DNA of 39,986 bases from Candidatus Taylorbacteria bacterium. Lineage in GTDB: Bacteria; Patescibacteriota; Minisyncoccia; Phycocordibacterales; HO2-43-120. Made by a program: the position numbers and the translations under genes. Position 1 is the stretch's first letter. Each line of letters begins with the position of its first letter. The notes beneath the pieces were generated by a model. It did no database searches, was not told the origin of the DNA, and saw only the letters and a program-made list of their open reading frames with translations. Positions 3,133 through 39,044 of the stretch are shown here, one piece after another. The stretch is taken from assembly GCA_039934295.1 (NCBI GenBank), contig JBDTMN010000011.1, forward strand, positions 1 to 39,986, written 5' to 3'.

Positions 3133-3882
3133 TTATTTCTTGTACACCACATTCTGGACCGGCGCGGCAGCCGCGGATTCCCGCTCTTTCGCTCCTTCTT
3201 TATACGCTCTCACAATTTCTCCCACAAAAAAACGGATACTCGAAATGGAGCTGTCATTGCCTGGAATCGGAAAATCCACTTCTTTAAAGTTGCAGTCGGA
3301 GCCGGAAAGGCTCACAACCGGAATATTTTGCTTATGGGCTTCAGTCACGGCGATTTTTTCGCGCTTCTGATCTACTACGAATATCGCTGCCGGCCTGTCT
3401 TTCATTTTGCGGATGCCCGAGAAAAATCTTTCGAGTTTTTCCACTTCTCTGTCAATCAAAAGCCGTTCTTTCTTCGTATATTTTGCCAATTCCCCTTTCT
3501 CTCTTTGGGCAATCGTGTCTTCCATTTTTTGAACGCGTTTTTTTATTTCATTGAAATTGGTGAAAGTGCCTCCAATCCATCGGCCCGAAACATACGGCAT
3601 TCCTATCGAGTCGGCTCCGCTTCGCACAGCTTCTTGAGACTCATTTTTCCCTCCGACGAAAAGAATCTGCTTGCCATCTCTCGCAATGGACCGAACATAC
3701 TCGCAAGCAGAGGCGAGCATTCCGCTTGTTTTTTCAAGATCGAAGATTTCTACGTTATTTTTCGCACCAAAAATAAAAGGCACGGCCTGCGGATGCCTTC
3801 TTCGGGGACTCATTGCGAAATGCGCCCCTGCCTTAAACATGGCTTCAATTAAAGTTTTATCGAGGTTTTTCTTGGTTTCCAT
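3133..3882 (-). CDS. rpsB: 30S ribosomal protein S2
   Basis: 249 aa, full length for the family. The N-terminal region (LIEAMFKAGAHFAMSPRRRHPQ), FIFGAKNNVEIFDLEKT, the WIGGTFTNF motif and the VVSLSGSDCN / PIPGND segment are all present. S2 binds the head-body junction of the 30S subunit. The gene heads an operon with tsf. The ATG at 3882 lies 8 nt after a -10 element with a well-spaced -35, so the mRNA is probably leaderless; no SD is present. Confidence 0.97.
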   Translation of the reverse strand: METKKNLDKTLIEAMFKAGAHFAMSPRRRHPQAVPFIFGAKNNVEIFDLEKTSGMLASACEYVRSIARDGKQILFVGGKNESQEAVRSGADSIGMPYVSGRWIGGTFTNFNEIKKRVQKMEDTIAQREKGELAKYTKKERLLIDREVEKLERFFSGIRKMKDRPAAIFVVDQKREKIAVTEAHKQNIPVVSLSGSDCNFKEVDFPIPGNDSSISSIRFFVGEIVRAYKEGAKERESAAAAPVQNVVYKK

Positions 3883-3890
3883 AGTAGATG

Positions 3891-3919
3891 AGTGTAGCAG
3901 ATAAATTTGCGGGACGCAA
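3891..3919 (-). promoter_or_regulatory. rpsB promoter, leaderless spacing
   Basis: On the minus strand TTGCGT, a 17-nt spacer and TACACT are followed by 8 nt and the rpsB ATG. The predicted transcription start falls at or within one or two bases of the start codon. A short hairpin (ATTTGCG/CGCAAAT, 3904-3920) overlaps the -35/spacer region. Confidence 0.65.
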
Positions 3920-3924
3920 ATTAG

Positions 3925-4000
3925 ACATAACCTATTACAAATAACTGAATAACTTATTGCGGAGAGAGAATTCTCCGGCTATTCAGTTATTGGTTACGTG
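3925..4000. repeat. Heptad-repeat hairpin between prfA and rpsB
   Basis: Seven-base words run on both arms (ATAACCT, ATTACAA, ATAACTG left; GTTATTG, GTTACGT, GTCACTG right). The core arms 3941-3951 and 3980-3990 are perfectly complementary, and a short GGAGA/TCTCC stem lies inside. The right end touches the prfA stop codon. Confidence 0.75.
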
Positions 4001-5022: not shown

Positions 5023-5244
5023 TTACTTTTTAGAAGTGGGAGCTTTCTTTTGTTGTCTCGCTTTAAACTTTTCAACCCGGCCGGCGGTATCAAGAAGATT
5101 TTCCTTGCCCGTATAGAAAGGGTGGCAATTACTGCAGATTTCCACGGAGATTTTTTCTTGAGTAGAACCCACCGTGTAAACCGCGCCGCATGCGCAGGTT
5201 GCGGTGGCATCACTATAGTATTTTGGATGGATGTCAGTCTTCAT
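5023..5244 (-). CDS. rpmE: 50S ribosomal protein L31
   Basis: 73-aa zinc-binding L31 (C+ type): [10 protein letters not shown] at the start, CACG at residues 17-20 and [11 protein letters not shown] at 37-47 provide the four cysteine positions. The ATG at 5244 aligns with the family; the upstream in-frame codons to 5298 read through a leader hairpin and are excluded. It lies immediately upstream of prfA in transcription order, with a short GC-rich hairpin (near 4990-5010) between them. Confidence 0.96.
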
Positions 5245-5255
5245 ATAATTACGTT

Positions 5256-5278
5256 TGTTAAGATTTCTTATCTTAACA
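5256..5278 (-). promoter_or_regulatory. Leader hairpin upstream of rpmE
   Basis: A perfect 9-bp stem (TGTTAAGAT / ATCTTAACA) with a 5-nt loop ends 11 nt before the rpmE ATG. On the minus strand a -35-like TTGCAG is 17 nt from TAAGAT inside this palindrome, so it could be an operator over a -10 or an mRNA hairpin. No SD is present. Confidence 0.45.
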
Positions 5279-5310
5279 GACATTTTACTATTCTGCAACT
5301 ATTAGATTTT

Positions 5311-5393
5311 TTGTAACATGTAACTTGTAACGTAAGAGAGGAGGAAATCTTCCCTTTTCAGACGCTACATGTTACATGTTTTGTGTTACATAT
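5311..5393. repeat. Dispersed heptad-hairpin element, family A copy 1
   Basis: The left arm has three 7-bp words TGTAACN; the right arm has CTACATG, TTACATG, TTTTGTG, TTACATA. Arms 5316-5333 and 5362-5379 match at 16 of 18 positions. The same scaffold (GTAACGTAAGA, loop, CAGACGCTACA, TTTTG, GTTACAT) recurs at 35826-35912, so these are two copies of one element with diverged loops. Confidence 0.85.
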
Positions 5394-6743
5394 TTAAAGT
5401 CCCTGCAACGGATCAATCATCGTCTCCTGAATAAGCTGGGCTTTTGCCATCACCTGGTCTCCGTAAAATGCATTTTTGGGCAAACTCCAGTTGCCTCCGG
5501 CATAGTATCGCAACGCCGCCTCGCGCTCCGCGCTGTATCCTCCCGCAGATGCTCCTAAGTCCGCCACAAAAAGAGACGTCGCAACAATCGCATCTCTCGG
5601 CTCCCACGGATTGGGATTTGTTTTCCCGACAACGTCTCCAATTCTTGCCTGATACATTTCCCAAGTAGAAGGAATAAATTGCGAGGGCCCCATCGCTCCG
5701 CCGTATCCTCCTCCCATCGGACATGAAAGTGGCATCGAAGCGGGGTCGAGTCCGAGGGCAGATGTAATGCGTAAATAGGGAGCCTGGTCACGCTCCGGCT
5801 TCATGATAGATTGCCAGCCTTTCTCCGGCGGGTCTCCCGGCCGATTGCACGTCCCCACATTTTTTCCAAGATTAGATTCCTGGGTAAGAATCGCCAAAAT
5901 AAAAGCTGGACGAACTCCAGTAGATTTGGAGGCAGCATTTGCATACTCAAGCGCCTTCCCGAAGGGTATCGCCGCCGTGTCTCGAAGCGAGAAAAGCGCG
6001 CTCCGTATTGCCGCCGCTTTCGCCTGACGTTGCGAAAGAACAGTCGCATAGCTCTGTTGCTGTTGCTTGCTTAGGCCCAAGAGGCGCTTTTTTTCGGCTT
6101 CCGCGGTTTCGATTTTCCGTTTTTCATCTTCAATTGAGATTTTGGCATCAATCTCTTTCAGCCTTTTTTTATTAAGCGAATCTTTTTGAACTTCGTTCTC
6201 GCTTTTGTCATCGCGTATCACGCGGACGGTTGTTTGGAGCGATTCTTGGATTGAAGCATAAGAATCCACATCCGCGAAAAAATCCGAGAAGTCCGACTTG
6301 GCGAGCACCGCTTCCACGAGACTGAAAGAATCAATCTCGTTTGTTTTTCTGATAAGCTCGGCCAGTGATTCTTTGTTTTTATCTATCCGAGCATTGAGTG
6401 CCTCAATAGTTTCATCCTTCTTGGTAATGTCTTTACCGAGAGCCTCAATGGCGAGTTCCCTCGCACGGATATTAAGCTTTGCCTTTGCGATTTGAGCATT
6501 CAAAATAGCCACATCTCGTTCTAAGGACGCTCCTTTCTGGCGCTCCGAATCCAAAATCACGGTTTGCTCGTCAATCTCCTTCAGGACCTGCTCAAGTTCT
6601 GCCTCCAATTGCTTCTGCCTAGCCGTGATAGCCTCTTCACTCTGGGCGTAAACGTGCGGAAGATATTGATCCGAATAACTCAAAAGGACAAGTGAAAAAA
6701 CACTTAGAGCTAACATTTTTAAAATGGCGCGAAAAAATACCAT
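5394..6743 (-). CDS. Secreted coiled-coil lytic murein transglycosylase
   Basis: 449 aa. A signal peptide or N-terminal anchor (residues ~1-33, ending VYAQSEE) is followed by a long coiled coil (~35-260) like that of PcsB/CwlO-type peptidoglycan-hydrolase regulators. A C-terminal transglycosylase domain has the catalytic-Glu motif (LAILTQESNLG) and GGAMGPSQFIPSTWEMY. Enzymes of this fold cleave the glycan MurNAc-GlcNAc bond with formation of an anhydro product. The coiled coil suggests control by a membrane partner such as FtsEX, but none is encoded here. It is flanked by repeat hairpins on both sides and seems to be its own transcription unit. Confidence 0.88.
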   Translation of the reverse strand: MVFFRAILKMLALSVFSLVLLSYSDQYLPHVYAQSEEAITARQKQLEAELEQVLKEIDEQTVILDSERQKGASLERDVAILNAQIAKAKLNIRARELAIEALGKDITKKDETIEALNARIDKNKESLAELIRKTNEIDSFSLVEAVLAKSDFSDFFADVDSYASIQESLQTTVRVIRDDKSENEVQKDSLNKKRLKEIDAKISIEDEKRKIETAEAEKKRLLGLSKQQQQSYATVLSQRQAKAAAIRSALFSLRDTAAIPFGKALEYANAASKSTGVRPAFILAILTQESNLGKNVGTCNRPGDPPEKGWQSIMKPERDQAPYLRITSALGLDPASMPLSCPMGGGYGGAMGPSQFIPSTWEMYQARIGDVVGKTNPNPWEPRDAIVATSLFVADLGASAGGYSAEREAALRYYAGGNWSLPKNAFYGDQVMAKAQLIQETMIDPLQGL

Positions 6744-18658: not shown

Positions 18659-19465
18659 TCAGGCTTTTTTCTTCCCCTCGAGAACATTTTTTATCTCTTC
18701 AATTATTTCATCCAGCGTCACTGTTGCTTTGATGAGAAAACGTTCTGCTCCCATATCTTTTGCCTTGTCGATATCCGCCTGCTGTCCGAAGTTGGAAAGC
18801 ATAATGACCGGAATGTGCTTGACGAGGTCATTCGCTTTAAGCCTTCTTAATATCTCATATCCGTCAATTCCCGAAAGAAGAATATCCAAAAGCACAATAT
18901 CCGGAATTTCCCTCTCGGCGGTCTTGAGCGCCAGTTCGCCGTTGATTTCATGTAAAAGTTTGCAACCCTGATTAGCAAGCTTCCTCGCGATAATGTCGCT
19001 CAAGAACGCATCATCCTCCACCCACATTATTTTCTTGTCTTTAAGAGAAGACGGGCCCGAAGTCGCTGATTTTTTTTCTTCTCTTTCAGGCGCACCTGTC
19101 TCTCCGAGTTGAAGCTTAATTTTTTGGAGCACTTCATCGGGATTGAACTCCGCTTTTATGAGATAGTCCTCTACGCCGAGAGCAAGCACGCGGTCAATCT
19201 CAACAGCCTGCCCTGAATTGGACACAACAATGACGGGAATACTAGAAATGGCCGGGTCTTTTAATTTCTGTTCCAGAATTTCAAACCCAGTCATCGAGGG
19301 AAGAATTAGGTCAAGAAGCACCAAGTCAGGTTTAAGTTCCTTAATCTGCTTGAAACCCAATGCGCCGTCTCGCGCCAAATACGCGTCATATCCGCCGTGC
19401 TTTAATTTTTGGAGGAGCACGTCTCCCAAAAATATGTCATCTTCAACAATAAGAATTTTTTTCAT
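18659..19465 (-). CDS. Double-receiver response regulator without output domain
   Basis: 268 aa made of two CheY-like receiver domains. Receiver 1 has the acidic pair ED(D), phospho-acceptor Asp52 (LVLLDLILPS), Ser/Thr in VSNSG and Lys104. Receiver 2 has VEDD, Asp194 (IVLLDILLSG), LSNFG and Lys in FLIKA. A ~25-residue linker joins them and no DNA-binding or enzymatic output follows. It is likely a phosphorelay or protein-interaction regulator paired with the histidine kinase encoded immediately upstream. Both sides of the gene carry inverted copies of the family B repeat. The ATG lies 7 nt after a TATATT. Confidence 0.93.
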   Translation of the reverse strand: MKKILIVEDDIFLGDVLLQKLKHGGYDAYLARDGALGFKQIKELKPDLVLLDLILPSMTGFEILEQKLKDPAISSIPVIVVSNSGQAVEIDRVLALGVEDYLIKAEFNPDEVLQKIKLQLGETGAPEREEKKSATSGPSSLKDKKIMWVEDDAFLSDIIARKLANQGCKLLHEINGELALKTAEREIPDIVLLDILLSGIDGYEILRRLKANDLVKHIPVIMLSNFGQQADIDKAKDMGAERFLIKATVTLDEIIEEIKNVLEGKKKA

Positions 19466-28108: not shown

Positions 28109-28134
28109 AAAAAACGGCTTTCGCCGTTTTTTTT
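28109..28134 (+). terminator. Rho-independent terminator
   Basis: AAAAAACGGC, TTTC, GCCGTTTTTTTT: a classic terminator ending the CARDB transcript. The first cassette repeat begins at its T tract. Confidence 0.85.
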
Positions 28135-28185
28135 AGCCACCGGCAAGGACCGTCCTTGATATGCAAGAACCGCTCAACAGAGCGG
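28133..28185. repeat. 53-bp direct repeat, copy 1 (cassette boundary)
   Basis: Identical to 29104-29156 except for one base. It contains two hairpins, CAAGGAC/GTCCTTG and CCGCTC/GAGCGG. In this copy the T tract after the second stem is interrupted (CATTTTT). Confidence 0.93.
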
Positions 28186-28287
28186 CATTTTTCAACCTCT
28201 CCTCATTGATTGATTTAGTCACACATATTGCCATTAACCCATTCTGTGGGAAAACCGCCATATGTGTGTGCACATTACCGAAGACCC

Positions 28288-28316
28288 TTGACTTTTAGGT
28301 GTTCAATGTGTATAAC
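28288..28316 (+). promoter_or_regulatory. Promoter of the cassette gene
   Basis: TTGACT, 17-nt spacer, TATAAC. It gives a leader of about 155 nt containing a 10-bp hairpin (28360-28369 with 28396-28405). Upstream, at about 28213-28268, CACACATAT and ATATGTGTG form another inverted pair. Apart from this promoter, the hairpins and the boundary repeat, 28186-28478 holds no gene. Confidence 0.6.
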
Positions 28317-28478
28317 TTATAGGTTACCTCGTTCTTTCACAATCTACTTTCTAAAGATGGTCATAGCCAAAAGGTTCCGATTATTCGGTGCTTTCTGGCT
28401 ATGACTATACTAGTCTAGTTCCTGCTCGGATGAGGGCGACACGAAAACGGGCAAATTAGCCCAAGGAGAAAAACTGTT

Positions 28479-29084
28479 ATGGAAACGAAAATGGACTTCG
28501 CGTCCCAGAACCTAACCGCTGGTCAGCTCAACGCCATCGTCAAGATCCTCGGAGGTGAGGAAGGTGCTTTGAAGTTTTTGCGTGGTGAACATGTTGTTCA
28601 GCCCGCGGTCATTCCCGAACCCCCGCCCGAACCCGTGCTGAACTTCATCGTTCGCGTGAATAGGTCCGTCAAGCCAACCTTCAACCATGGGATATTCACG
28701 TCGCGCTGGTTGGATAAACCCGAGTTGGAGTGCTTGGGACCCGCTGAATACAACCTTCAAGACGGGGTTGTAGAGTGGCTCCACGACGACCAGAAGCGTA
28801 ACTCCGTTGACGGCAATACCATCTACAGTCACTTGAAGAAAAACGATGCTCTCGCCACCTGTCTGAACATGCAGGATGGGCTCGCCATTAAAGAGAGGGG
28901 TATCGCCGTGTTCCACAAGCTGTTCGCGGGCAAGGCGGTGTTCCTGTGGAAATCTGTCATAAGAGGCGATTGCGATTGGCGTGTCCCGTATCTCCACATC
29001 GAGGGCAACGAGGTTGTGTTGGGTGCGTTCAATTTGGACGACCACTGGTTCTCCTGCCACCCCGCTCTCCGTTTCAGCAAGTAG
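28479..29084 (+). CDS. Cassette protein of unknown function, 201 aa
   Basis: A soluble protein starting METKMDFASQNLTAGQLNAI and ending HPALRFSK. An N-terminal helical segment (NLTAGQLNAIVKILGGEEGA, FLRGE) is joined by a Pro/Glu linker (~44-52) to a mixed alpha/beta domain with several Trp and His residues. From memory, CPR genomes contain repeated small proteins with a similar N-terminal segment, but I cannot verify this. The gene is visibly GC-richer and uses different codons from its neighbours. It has a canonical AAGGAG ten bases before the ATG, rare in this window, and sits between direct repeats. An equally long antisense frame (28512-29117) is treated as a shadow because the SD and promoter point to this strand. 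Confidence 0.75.
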   Translation: METKMDFASQNLTAGQLNAIVKILGGEEGALKFLRGEHVVQPAVIPEPPPEPVLNFIVRVNRSVKPTFNHGIFTSRWLDKPELECLGPAEYNLQDGVVEWLHDDQKRNSVDGNTIYSHLKKNDALATCLNMQDGLAIKERGIAVFHKLFAGKAVFLWKSVIRGDCDWRVPYLHIEGNEVVLGAFNLDDHWFSCHPALRFSK

Positions 29085-29103
29085 CACTTTGGACTTTGGG
29101 CAC

Positions 29104-29156
29104 TTAGCCACCGGCAAGGACCGTCCTTGACATGCAAGAACCGCTCAACAGAGCGG
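29104..29156. repeat. 53-bp direct repeat, copy 2 (cassette boundary)
   Basis: The partner of 28133-28185. Here the second hairpin is followed by an uninterrupted T tract and works as the terminator of the cassette gene (29139-29163). Confidence 0.93.
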
Positions 29157-29163
29157 TTTTTTT
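29139..29163 (+). terminator. Terminator of the cassette gene
   Basis: AACCGCTC, AACA, GAGCGGTTTTTTT: part of direct-repeat copy 2. Confidence 0.85.
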
Positions 29164-29349: not shown

Positions 29350-32300
29350 CTAGATGTCCAAATTCGCCATCTTCGCATTCGACTGAATAAATGTTTTACG
29401 AGCAGGAACATCGGTTCCCATGAGCATATCGAATACTTTGTCGGCTTCGGCTGCGTCTTCAACAGTTACTTGCTTCAAGATTCTCTTTGACGCGTCCATG
29501 GTCGTTTCCTTGAGCTCTTCCGGATTCATCTCTCCCAAACCTTTGTATCTTTGGATAGAAATTTTTGGAACTCTTTTTTGCGAGCCTTCTTCCTCTGCTT
29601 CCTCTTTCGCCTCTTTGTTCGTGTTCTGATCTTCCTCCGCTGGGTTTTCGATGAGGTCTATGGCCTCGACATCCTTGCCCAGATATTTTATTTTCTCTTC
29701 CTCGGTGTAGACGTAGGTCACCTCTTTTCCTTTTTTGATTTTATAAAGTGGCGGCTGGGCAATGTAAATAAACCCTCCATCTAGTAGCGGTTTGAAGTAT
29801 CGGTAGAAAAGAGTGAGTAAGAGCGTGCGAATGTGCGCTCCATCCACATCGGCATCAGTCGCGATAATGATTTTGTGGTAGCGAAGTTTTGAGACGTCAA
29901 ACGTATCCCCTATCGCGGTTCCAATCGCGATGACCAAGTTCTTAATCTGCTCGCTTCCGAGCATTTTGTCGAGTCGCGCTCTCTCAATATTCAAAATTTT
30001 CCCACGAAGCGGCAAGACAGCCTGCGTCCTTCTGTCCCGTCCTGTTTTGGCACTATTGTGGACAAAAATCCCAGAGGCCAATGCAAAATTATGAGTTCCG
30101 GGTACTTCAATATCATACACATCAAATCTTTCAGACATTTTCTCAATTTTCTTGATTCTGTGATTAAAATGTGTTATAGCTTCTTCAAATTTATTTTTTT
30201 CTCCAGCAAAAAATCGGTCGCGAACGGTTTCCCATTTAATGAGAGACTTGTCGTTTGTTTCTTTTCTAATTGCGTTATAAGCATTAACGTCAATTTTGCC
30301 GTTTTTCAAATACAAATCGTGCAGGGTTTTAAGTGCCTTATTGAGATACGTTTGGTTATAAGAATTTTTTCTTTTAGAACGAAATTCGGGAGTCCATTGT
30401 TTTTTAGTTTCCTGGCTTCTCCAAGCAAGAAGGCTTTCATTGCTCCATTCTTTCCTTGCTTCTTCACGAAGCCAATCCTTTCGCTCTGGGTGTTTTTCGA
30501 AAGAATCAATTACTTTTTCAGATTGTTTCAGTCGATTTTCTGAAGACGACCAATGTGCCTTCTGATTTTCATTCAAAAGATTATTATTTGATTTTCTGTA
30601 CTCTTCATTAGAATGATAAAATTCCAGAAATTTCTCTGTCATGAATTTTTTATACTCAGGATTCTCCCATTGCTTCTTTGCATTTGCACTAAACAATTCC
30701 TTTTTCTCTAAGCTTTTATCTCTAGCTTTTATGCGAAAAGCGCCTGTTCGTTTGGCTTCCGCCGACTTAACTTTCACATCAGGACGATGAAGCGTGTGCT
30801 CCAAATGACTATAGTGAATAGCCATGTGTTGTTCATAGCTGACTCGTTGAATATTGCTTGGATTATTGTTTCTTTTATTGAAATCAACATGATGGCGATG
30901 ACTACCATTTTTGGAAGTGTAAACACCTTTTTTAAGATTGTACATATCAGCAAGTACATGTGTAGGAATCCATTTTTTCTCTTTTGGATCAAAAACCATT
31001 TCATAGCCGTCAAGGCTTGTACCTTCTCCTTTTACAGAAATTTTCCTATAAAGAGGAGCGATGCTGTCATTCGGGGTTAAAGCATGAGCCGGCTTATAAG
31101 AACCGCCGACTAATCTAAAAGGATGATCGGGTGTGCACGTAAGTTCTTCATCCGAGTCCAAAATTATTTTTATTACTTCTGCATTATGTTTTGTGAGTCT
31201 AGGATTTGTTATGGGCGCTAAACCAATATGGCCATCCTCACGCATCGTGTAGCAAAAATTTTGCTTACCCTGTTTATCTTCCTCAATCAACTCTTTTAGA
31301 GATAATGCTCGACCATCAGACAATGCAATTTCAGTTTTGTCAATCCAACATCCACCGGCGCTATCCCCCTCAACGATAAACAATTCAGCCTCCGATGCTT
31401 CTTTAGTTTGGCAATCAGCGAGTTTTCCTGGAAGTGTCATGCCCTCAAGCGCGCCCTTGCGAAGCACGGAATCCTTGGCGGCCTTTGCCGCTTTTCTTGC
31501 TTTCAAGGCCAGCACCACTTTGCCGATTACTGCCCGAGAATCGTCCGGGTTTTCCTCGAGGAACGCCGAAAATGCGTCGCCAAATACAGTAGACACTGCT
31601 CCCTGCGCCTCCACCGACCCCAACTTTGCCTTTGTCTGCCCTTCAAACTGAACTTCGCGCATCTTTACCGATACGACGGCGGTCAGGCCTTCGAGCACAT
31701 CCTCTCCCGTAAAATTGTCCTCCGATTCTTTGATGAGATTATTTTTTCTCGCGTAGGCATTCAGTGTTCTCGTGAGAGTCGTTTTGAAACCCGTTATATG
31801 AGTTCCTCCTTCAGAAGTGTAAATATTGTTTGCAAAAGGCAGAACCCTCGATGAAATATCGTCCACATATTGGAGAGCGATTTCAACCGATTCCACTCCT
31901 TCGACTTTCTTTTCAACATAAAAAATATTCTTGTGAACCGACGTCAAGGCTTGGTTTGTAAACCGAACCAAAGAAACAAGGCCTCCCTCGAAATAAAATG
32001 CCTCCGACGGAGCGTCGAGACCGAGCTCTTTGAGATAAAACACTTCTTCATTCTCGAAGTCCCCGTCAATTCCGCGAAAATCGATGACGCTTATCTTTAA
32101 ACCATGCACTAGGTATGCTTGCTGACGCATATGGGTAACCACTCGGGTGAAATCGAATTTAATTTCTCCATCCTTGGCGGAAAATATCTCCGAGTCGGGC
32201 TCAAATGTGGTGATCGTCCCGTGAAGTTTTGAAGAGCCGATTTTTTTTACCGCCGCTTTTCTTTTTCCTTTTGAATATTCTTGAACGTACTTCCCCCCGT

Positions 32301-32727
32301 CTCTGTGAACCTCCACCCTGCAGTAAATGGAAAGCGCATTCACTACCGAAGCGCCCACTCCGTGAAGCCCTCCCGACACTTTGTATCCTTCTCCGCCAAA
32401 TTTGCCTCCGGCGTGAAGCGTAGTCATGATTGTTTCCAATGCGGAAACTTTTGTTTGCTTATGCATGTCTACGGGAATTCCTCGTCCGTTGTCCGTTACC
32501 CGCACGCGGTTTTGAGGCAGAAGAACCACTTCGATGTCATTGGCAAAACCCCCCATCGCTTCGTCGCGGGAGTTATCAAAGATCTCCGTTATGAGATGAT
32601 GCAAGCCGTCCGGCCCCGTAGTTCCGATATACATTCCGGGCCTTTTGCGGACTGGCTCTAATCCTTCGAGAACGGTAATGGATTCAGCGCTGTATGTTGA
32701 TTTTTTCGGTTCTTTTTCTTTAGCCAT
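29350..32727 (-). CDS. gyrB: DNA gyrase subunit B with an in-frame intein
   Basis: 1125-residue precursor, 693 aa after splicing. The GHKL ATPase domain begins ITVLEGLEPVRKRPGMYIG, with DNSRDEA, DNGRGIPVD and GGLHGVGASVVNALS. The TOPRIM domain (AELFIVEGDSAGG ... IIIATDADVDGAHIRTLLL) is interrupted by the intein exactly between SAGG and SAKTGRDR. The C-terminal IQRYKGLGEMNPEEL motif is present. With GyrA it introduces negative supercoils. The ATG at 32727 is chosen over a TTG six bases upstream. A TATAAT (32758-32763) gives a ~24-nt leader without a well-placed SD. Confidence 0.96.
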   Translation of the reverse strand: MAKEKEPKKSTYSAESITVLEGLEPVRKRPGMYIGTTGPDGLHHLITEIFDNSRDEAMGGFANDIEVVLLPQNRVRVTDNGRGIPVDMHKQTKVSALETIMTTLHAGGKFGGEGYKVSGGLHGVGASVVNALSIYCRVEVHRDGGKYVQEYSKGKRKAAVKKIGSSKLHGTITTFEPDSEIFSAKDGEIKFDFTRVVTHMRQQAYLVHGLKISVIDFRGIDGDFENEEVFYLKELGLDAPSEAFYFEGGLVSLVRFTNQALTSVHKNIFYVEKKVEGVESVEIALQYVDDISSRVLPFANNIYTSEGGTHITGFKTTLTRTLNAYARKNNLIKESEDNFTGEDVLEGLTAVVSVKMREVQFEGQTKAKLGSVEAQGAVSTVFGDAFSAFLEENPDDSRAVIGKVVLALKARKAAKAAKDSVLRKGALEGMTLPGKLADCQTKEASEAELFIVEGDSAGGCWIDKTEIALSDGRALSLKELIEEDKQGKQNFCYTMREDGHIGLAPITNPRLTKHNAEVIKIILDSDEELTCTPDHPFRLVGGSYKPAHALTPNDSIAPLYRKISVKGEGTSLDGYEMVFDPKEKKWIPTHVLADMYNLKKGVYTSKNGSHRHHVDFNKRNNNPSNIQRVSYEQHMAIHYSHLEHTLHRPDVKVKSAEAKRTGAFRIKARDKSLEKKELFSANAKKQWENPEYKKFMTEKFLEFYHSNEEYRKSNNNLLNENQKAHWSSSENRLKQSEKVIDSFEKHPERKDWLREEARKEWSNESLLAWRSQETKKQWTPEFRSKRKNSYNQTYLNKALKTLHDLYLKNGKIDVNAYNAIRKETNDKSLIKWETVRDRFFAGEKNKFEEAITHFNHRIKKIEKMSERFDVYDIEVPGTHNFALASGIFVHNSAKTGRDRRTQAVLPLRGKILNIERARLDKMLGSEQIKNLVIAIGTAIGDTFDVSKLRYHKIIIATDADVDGAHIRTLLLTLFYRYFKPLLDGGFIYIAQPPLYKIKKGKEVTYVYTEEEKIKYLGKDVEAIDLIENPAEEDQNTNKEAKEEAEEEGSQKRVPKISIQRYKGLGEMNPEELKETTMDASKRILKQVTVEDAAEADKVFDMLMGTDVPARKTFIQSNAKMANLDI
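30055..31350 (-). other. GyrB intein (432 aa) with HNH homing endonuclease
   Basis: Starts with Cys (CWIDKTEIALSDGR) and ends with FALASGIFVHN before the +1 Ser of the extein. The splicing blocks are recognisable: block A at the Cys, block B-like CTPDHPFRL, block F (FDVYDIEVPGTHNFALASG), and the terminal HN pair. The insert holds an HNH-type nuclease (HRHHVDFNKRNNNPSNIQ) followed by DNA-binding repeat-like segments (KKQWENPEYKKFM, SSENRLKQSEK, KKQWTPEFRSKRK). All splicing residues appear intact, so protein splicing is expected. Confidence 0.93.
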
Positions 32728-32861
32728 AAACAAAAAAGCCCTATGCTTTCACCTCTAATTATAGCAAATTGACACCCTTTTTGAAAGCACTTTTTCCACA
32801 AAATATGGCTTAATATTAGCTCTAAATCAGGCTTTTAGGACACTAGTTGCCAGCATGAAGA

Positions 32862-38673: not shown

Positions 38674-38751
38674 GTTTTGTACACCTACTTGCACCTTAAC
38701 ATTTTTGCATAAAAAGTCAATAGTTGACCTCGGGCCTTAGAAATGGTCAGA

Positions 38752-38791
38752 GGCGCCAAAAAACCCCTACTTCTAGGGGTTTTTTGGCGCC
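38752..38791. terminator. Bidirectional terminator, perfect 18-bp stem
   Basis: GGCGCCAAAAAACCCCTA, CTTC, and the exact complement. The A/T runs within the stem give a CCCCTA/TAGGGG core followed by T6 on both strands. It terminates transcription coming from the 16S gene. Between it and the 16S end (38792-39000) are only hairpins, for example GATTGAC-TTCG-GTCAATC, CTCTTTCG/CGAAAGAG and ATCATCCGC/GCGGATGAT; no 23S, 5S or tRNA gene is seen. Confidence 0.85.
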
Positions 38792-39044
38792 TCGAGAAAT
38801 CCTCGAGGAATATTATTCTTTGTTCTGTTCCGTTCGTCGGCCGATCATCCGCCATAAGCGGATGATTTAGGCCCTATTGGTCTTTCCCAACGTCAAACTA
38901 TTTTTAGGATACAAGTTGTTATCCCTCTTTCGCTTGTGACGAAAGAGATCGACTCCTTAAGCCCCTTCGATTGACCGAAGTCAATCAGAGGGCGGTTTCA
39001 AATTGAAATATTCCACGAGCAGCTTCCGCTACCCGTGCCTTGTT

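Follow-up and report, generated by a model that had tools for sequence, protein, structure and literature searches.

A solitary DGR target gene with a conserved structured leader RNA in a Candidatus Taylorbacteria genome in which no mutator was detected

The window, a stretch of 39,986 nt, corresponds to contig JBDTMN010000011.1 (C11) of the Candidatus Taylorbacteria host genome G000 (Patescibacteria; 1.05 Mb, 25-contig draft, 99.1% complete). It contained a 201-aa gene located behind a 383-aa gene and flanked by two direct repeats (Table 1). The promoter-like element of the gene was read by eye, having been missed by a consensus scan because the scan demands T at position 6; many relatives of the gene had a similar TTGACA/TATAAT spacing in the equivalent place. 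The first-pass annotation had described a one-gene cassette with a canonical AAGGAG and with base composition and codon use deviating from the surroundings. The AAGGAG was present as described, and the compositional deviation was reproduced for GC (0.54 in the gene vs 0.44 in the window) and for GC3 (0.71 vs 0.46 in the upstream gene). The GC of the target was greater than that of its flanks in 38 of 38 relatives.

Table 1. Positions of the features of the locus in the window (all on the forward strand).
Feature	Position	Strand	Description or basis
Terminator of upstream 383-aa gene	28110..28134	+	AAAAACGGCTTTCGCCGTTTTTTTT; direct reading
Repeat copy 1	28133..28192	+	REP-like palindrome CAAGGACCGTCCTTGATATG and degraded terminator hairpin
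Promoter-like TTGACT-17-TATAAC	28288..28316	+	Read by eye
boxA-like GTTCTTTCACAA	28331..28342	+	Putative function
Conserved structured leader RNA	28356..28468	+	Long interrupted hairpin P1, hairpins P2 and P3; ends in Shine-Dalgarno
Shine-Dalgarno AAGGAG	28463..28468	+	Direct reading
DGR target (variable protein), 201 aa	28479..29084	+	69% identical to L069 target
Variable region (VR), last 40 codons and stop	28962..29084	+	Codon-by-codon alignment to L069 template repeat
Repeat copy 2	29104..29163	+	REP-like palindrome and intact terminator

Relatives of the gene were present in 10 of 380 genomes of the phylum, host included (two of the matches were N-terminal only, and one lay in a frame with stops). 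A scan with an N-terminal motif returned 38 loci, all of them from Patescibacteria where the title names the group. The window protein had no match in Pfam, no convincing match in NCBIfam or PHROGs, and no relative among viral contigs. Self-comparison of the relatives revealed template repeats (TR) downstream of many of them, followed by YADD reverse transcriptases (RT), and a TR or TR-RNA element lay beside the gene in at least 19 other relatives. That the gene is a DGR target had been missed by the first-pass annotation. One subfamily was conserved almost totally except at a set of C-terminal-proximal positions reading as NNY codons, and variation restricted in this way is the signature of a DGR variable region. 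In 18 TR/VR pairs, 219 of 397 mismatches fell at TR adenines, with adenines making up about 22% of TR letters; the comparison was ungapped and probably understates the true adenine bias.

The best relative (L069), on a Nomurabacteria contig, belonged to a complete DGR composed of target, TR and YADD reverse transcriptase. The L069 TR and its own VR were identical at 91 of 110 positions, and 16 of the 19 mismatches were at TR adenines. With the L069 TR, and not one of its own, as the template, the window gene differed at all 11 AAY codons, and 10 of these had become NNY. Amino-acid differences between the window gene and L069 were concentrated at AAY codons (10/11 vs 11/27 of the other VR codons; Fisher p = 0.005). 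Conserved tryptophans of the window VR were also changed (W-x-W-L to A-F-N-L); this change is not explained by DGR mutagenesis and counts against the explanation preferred below. Homology to a target belonging to a complete DGR, together with the VR signature, identifies the window gene on sequence grounds as a DGR target. Perfect stems within 130 nt behind the VR were found by a simple scan at 27 of 42 loci, L069 not being among them; in BPP-1 a DNA hairpin behind the VR is a target-recognition signal (PMC3240598). The AlphaFold2 model had pLDDT mostly >90 across the C-terminal half. Foldseek returned no significant match for the predicted structure, nor did viral structures. The 27 weak structural matches were mostly C-type lectins (best Z 4.4) and are suggestive of a C-type-lectin-like fold around the VR.

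The leader of the window gene folded at -47.3 kcal/mol (z = -5.3), and its structure had 28 base pairs. Hairpins P1, P2 and P3 were common to 24 leaders, with P3 directly upstream of the Shine-Dalgarno. In the alignment of these leaders 94.3% of cells paired and 15 pairs had double changes; the structure was drawn by hand from the same sequences, which favours the percentage paired and, to a lesser extent, the double changes. Shuffling gave 24.5 ± 3.2 doubly changed cells vs 78 observed; slid controls collapsed. The structured leader proposed earlier is thus real, its compensatory changes lying far above controls, and a chance hairpin is excluded by the covariation. Rfam 15 (cmscan, E up to 1) had no match at the leader. 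The model built from the 24 leaders (R1) scored 98.5 bits on the window leader, itself one of the 24, and had matches in 15 of 380 genomes of the phylum, the weaker ones often covering P1 only.

Approximately 11 of 14 further R1 loci preceded a gene that by eye looked like a DGR target, and one was cut by the end of its locus. The genes behind these loci had varied N-termini. An adjacent A-biased TR-like copy was present at 6 of the 14, with adenine mismatches of 17/35 in the weakest case and from 8/10 to 19/19 in the others. Specificity of the leader to one protein family is ruled out, the leader having been found before unrelated DGR targets. As judged from the model matches and the genes behind them, the leader marks unrelated DGR targets across Patescibacteria and has no Rfam counterpart. 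This RNA is the most interesting result of the analysis and reaches beyond the window. Of 39 leaders, 24 had a GTTCTTTGA-type word, in most cases 136-151 nt ahead of the start codon (counted without a control). The word lies upstream of P1 and looks like the boxA of rRNA. Its place at the 5' end of the RNA suggests that antitermination is possible. From its position, with P3 immediately 5' of the Shine-Dalgarno and with the boxA-like word, the leader may control expression of the target.

In complete CPR DGRs a second conserved structured element (R2, or TR-RNA) separated the target from the TR (L069 3786-3928, with equivalents in L026, L028 and L074-L105; about 143 nt). It had 37 pairs, 18 of them with double changes, and 47 doubly changed cells vs 14.1 ± 2.9 in shuffles. 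Rfam had no match at R2 of L026 and L028. The R2 covariance model had no match in the host genome, an RVT_1 search of the 25-contig draft had none, and no second VR-like sequence (TR) was found in it. Among 16 genomes of relatives, 10 had an RVT_1 match. The same-genus genome G001, apparently that of L090 (Ca. Taylorbacteria RIFCSPLOWO2_12_FULL_43_20; identical R2 hits), had both an R2 match and an RT. Six genomes contained a relative of the target but had no RVT_1 match (G266, G283, G022, G160, G382 and G388); all six are drafts, and some of their relatives were weak or N-terminal matches.

With neither RT, TR nor TR-RNA detected in the host genome, the target looks stranded and is probably frozen. 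Against this, the genome is a draft of 25 contigs, and a gap may hide an RT. The gene is of a known kind, a DGR target, in an unusual state in that no mutator was found. Very probably it is a lone DGR target that came in as a module, with a promoter and a structured leader of its own, and is now left stranded with no mutator. This reading draws on the family membership, the VR signature, a leader that is conserved and associated with DGR targets, and the failure to find RT, TR and TR-RNA. The earlier opinion that the layout is unlike that of an IS is shared here, the element not being an IS, and the module reading was borne out. A module of promoter, leader, Shine-Dalgarno and gene, with foreign composition and distant conservation, stood up to the analysis, whereas the repeat as a part of that module did not.

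The first-pass annotation had claimed 53-bp direct repeats 971 bp apart and identical at 52 of 53 positions, and recomputation agreed (start-to-start 971; one mismatch within the first 53 nt; 95% identity over 60 nt). Copy 1 begins immediately behind the terminator of the upstream gene. Two hairpins were present in each copy, as claimed; the assignment of the second as a terminator was good for copy 2, where it had an 11-bp stem and a T tail, and in copy 1 the terminator was weakened (6-bp stem, GCGGCATTTTT). With at most 3 mismatches allowed, the palindrome matched the window 6 times (both strands of 3 sites) vs 0.36 expected. With the same threshold, the core palindrome CAAGGACCGTCCTTGACATG had 21 forward and 19 reverse matches in the host genome, many of them the two strands of one palindrome, and its reversed control had 3 and 2. 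The 53-bp unit itself recurred on contigs C8, C17 and C5 at 84-90% identity. The palindrome count above expectation and the recurrence of the longer unit indicate that the repeats are not due to chance.

Of these copies of the longer repeat, the one on C8 followed an exported-protein gene, the one on C5 followed a pilin-like gene, and the one on C17 adjoined a Y1 transposase gene; palindromes without the longer unit stood alone at many sites. Contigs C5 and C17 may adjoin in the real genome, since both end in the repeat. The 53-bp repeat was not found in the same-genus genome G001. The search for other copies suggested by the first-pass annotation thus uncovered a terminator scattered behind unrelated genes, an outcome that the annotation had itself named as refuting its reading. 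Given these copies and the same-genus genome lacking the repeat, the 53-bp repeat is not an end specific to the module; it is a terminator joined to a REP-like palindrome, dispersed within this genome and specific to it. L069, the nearest relative with a complete DGR, lacked such repeats. On the reverse strand of C13 (L012, approximately 5050-5740) there was a single gene, GC-richer in appearance, with a hairpin leader and its own terminator and with a palindrome shortly behind; it was not recognisable as a DGR target.

Insertion or exchange of promoter-leader-gene-terminator units by recombination between the repeats, with copy 1 as the scar of an earlier unit, would make the locus part of a mobile cassette system. 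The two window copies shared 95% identity, above the 84-90% of the copies elsewhere in the genome, as such exchange would have it, and direct repeats flanked targets elsewhere. In the searched flanks of relatives they occurred at two other loci only, L106 and L101, to which a locus of G283 adds a third. L106 had a layout like that of the present locus, with repeats that are terminators unrelated to the window repeat. In L101 a 93-bp duplication (2523-2615 and 3838-3930) framed a solitary target and consisted of the 3' end of the upstream gene, by eye presumably secY, and its terminator. Contig C16 of G283 (L024) contained two tandem relatives of the target (proteins 32% identical) with the same 116-bp terminator repeat behind each (97.4% identical); approximately 408 kb of that genome held no further copy. 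These three loci keep the cassette-array idea of the first-pass annotation alive, but their repeats are mutually unrelated, so that homologous recombination or local duplication fits them as well as a dedicated system does. Exchange of cassettes is further opposed by the unrelated genes in front of the repeat in the host genome, by the lack of window-type flanking repeats among relatives with a complete DGR, and by local terminator duplication yielding the same picture; on balance it is rather doubtful. Integron gene cassettes are similar in layout only, being single promoter-gene units beside a repeat; with repeats behind unrelated genes, the locus differs from them in having no cassette-specific repeat.

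The gene could also be a live remote target whose diversification continues in trans, driven by a DGR core that the assembly lacks. Its ORF was intact, with a dN/dS of about 0.32 vs L069 outside the VR. In G359 a relative of the target was on contig C2 and the two RT genes were on C5. Variable proteins remote from the RT are known from cyanobacteria, where targets are dispersed as here and transposases are proposed as the dispersal agents (PMC7517822); those targets are tied to the DGR of their own genome, and here no DGR was found. The joint absence of RT, TR and TR-RNA from an assembly of this completeness makes continuing diversification unlikely.

Movement of the gene by the 53-bp repeats as a RAYT-mobilised element is very improbable. 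A Y1 transposase gene (PF01797, 37.5 bits) on C17 did lie between copies of the same palindrome at 19167 and 19911, but copy number was low, palindromes were solitary at many sites, and RAYTs are not known to carry passenger genes. The inverted orientation of the palindromes is hard to tell, the palindrome being nearly symmetric. On C17 of the host and in L010 alike, a Y1 transposase gene stood between two palindromes with pilin-like genes adjoining. The dispersed intergenic palindromes, and the one pair around a Y1 transposase gene, resemble REP/RAYT systems (PMC2817692). The locus differs from them in its few copies, in the fusion of palindrome and terminator, and in having no GTAG-type head, the defining REP feature (PMC2817692), in the sequences of the palindrome copies listed in the host genome. 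A search of one open-access library returned no relevant paper joining RAYT with CPR.

The left neighbours (p643, sortase and the 383-aa gene) were syntenic in G001, but there a different gene, not a target, follows the 383-aa gene, the best relative is in Nomurabacteria, and the GC excess over the flanks is general among relatives, so that an ordinary housekeeping gene, inherited vertically and beside the repeat by chance, can be dismissed almost completely. Because the target is absent from that place in G001, the gene was not inherited at its present position in the nearest genome compared. No clean empty site was found; gyrB, the right-hand neighbour, was not beside the 383-aa gene in G001. 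The gyrB ORF (29350-32733, 1127 aa) had an intein-like insertion at its GDSAGG motif.

For the stranded target preferred here, an RT in an ancestor or donor would have copied the template RNA with errors at adenines. The resulting cDNA would have overwritten the VR and given a surface of new specificity on the C-type-lectin-like fold. The VR of the host would no longer be rewritable, barring an overlooked RT. The flanking 53-bp repeats, as the genome's own dispersed palindrome and terminator, would end transcripts, and homology between the repeat copies would be the likeliest route by which the module landed between them.

Among the closest known systems are the Patescibacteria (CPR) DGRs, candidate clade 2 of Roux et al. 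2021 (PMC8144416), which share with the locus the target family and the C-terminal VR and, in relatives, the adenine-biased template and the YADD RT. Their targets are reported without a recognisable N-terminal domain, as here, and the role of these targets is an open question (PMC8144416). The locus differs in that the target is alone, no RT, TR or TR-RNA having been detected in the genome. The text of PMC8144416 makes no mention of leader, hairpin, untranslated, non-coding or orphan. In one open-access library, no relevant paper joined DGR with riboswitch, and among the ten best matches none joined DGR with structured RNA. A leader common to unrelated targets suggests common regulation and provides a sequence handle for finding targets without an RT; a search based on it could reach the remote and RT-less targets missed by RT-centred surveys. 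Targets without an RT would also allow asking whether selection keeps frozen variants. As a conjecture of low probability, Patescibacteria might trade terminator-bounded DGR-target modules, each made up of promoter, structured leader, target and terminator repeat, that settle in RT-less genomes as fixed repertoires of receptor variants, with the leader as the common control RNA of every DGR target in the group.

Two further RNA matches were observed. At 38749-38810 of the window R1 matched weakly (24.2 bits), probably through no more than a P1-like hairpin. On the minus strand of L022 (1130-1193), a DUF3800-II RNA (RF02961, 63.9 bits) was located just upstream of a relative of the target.
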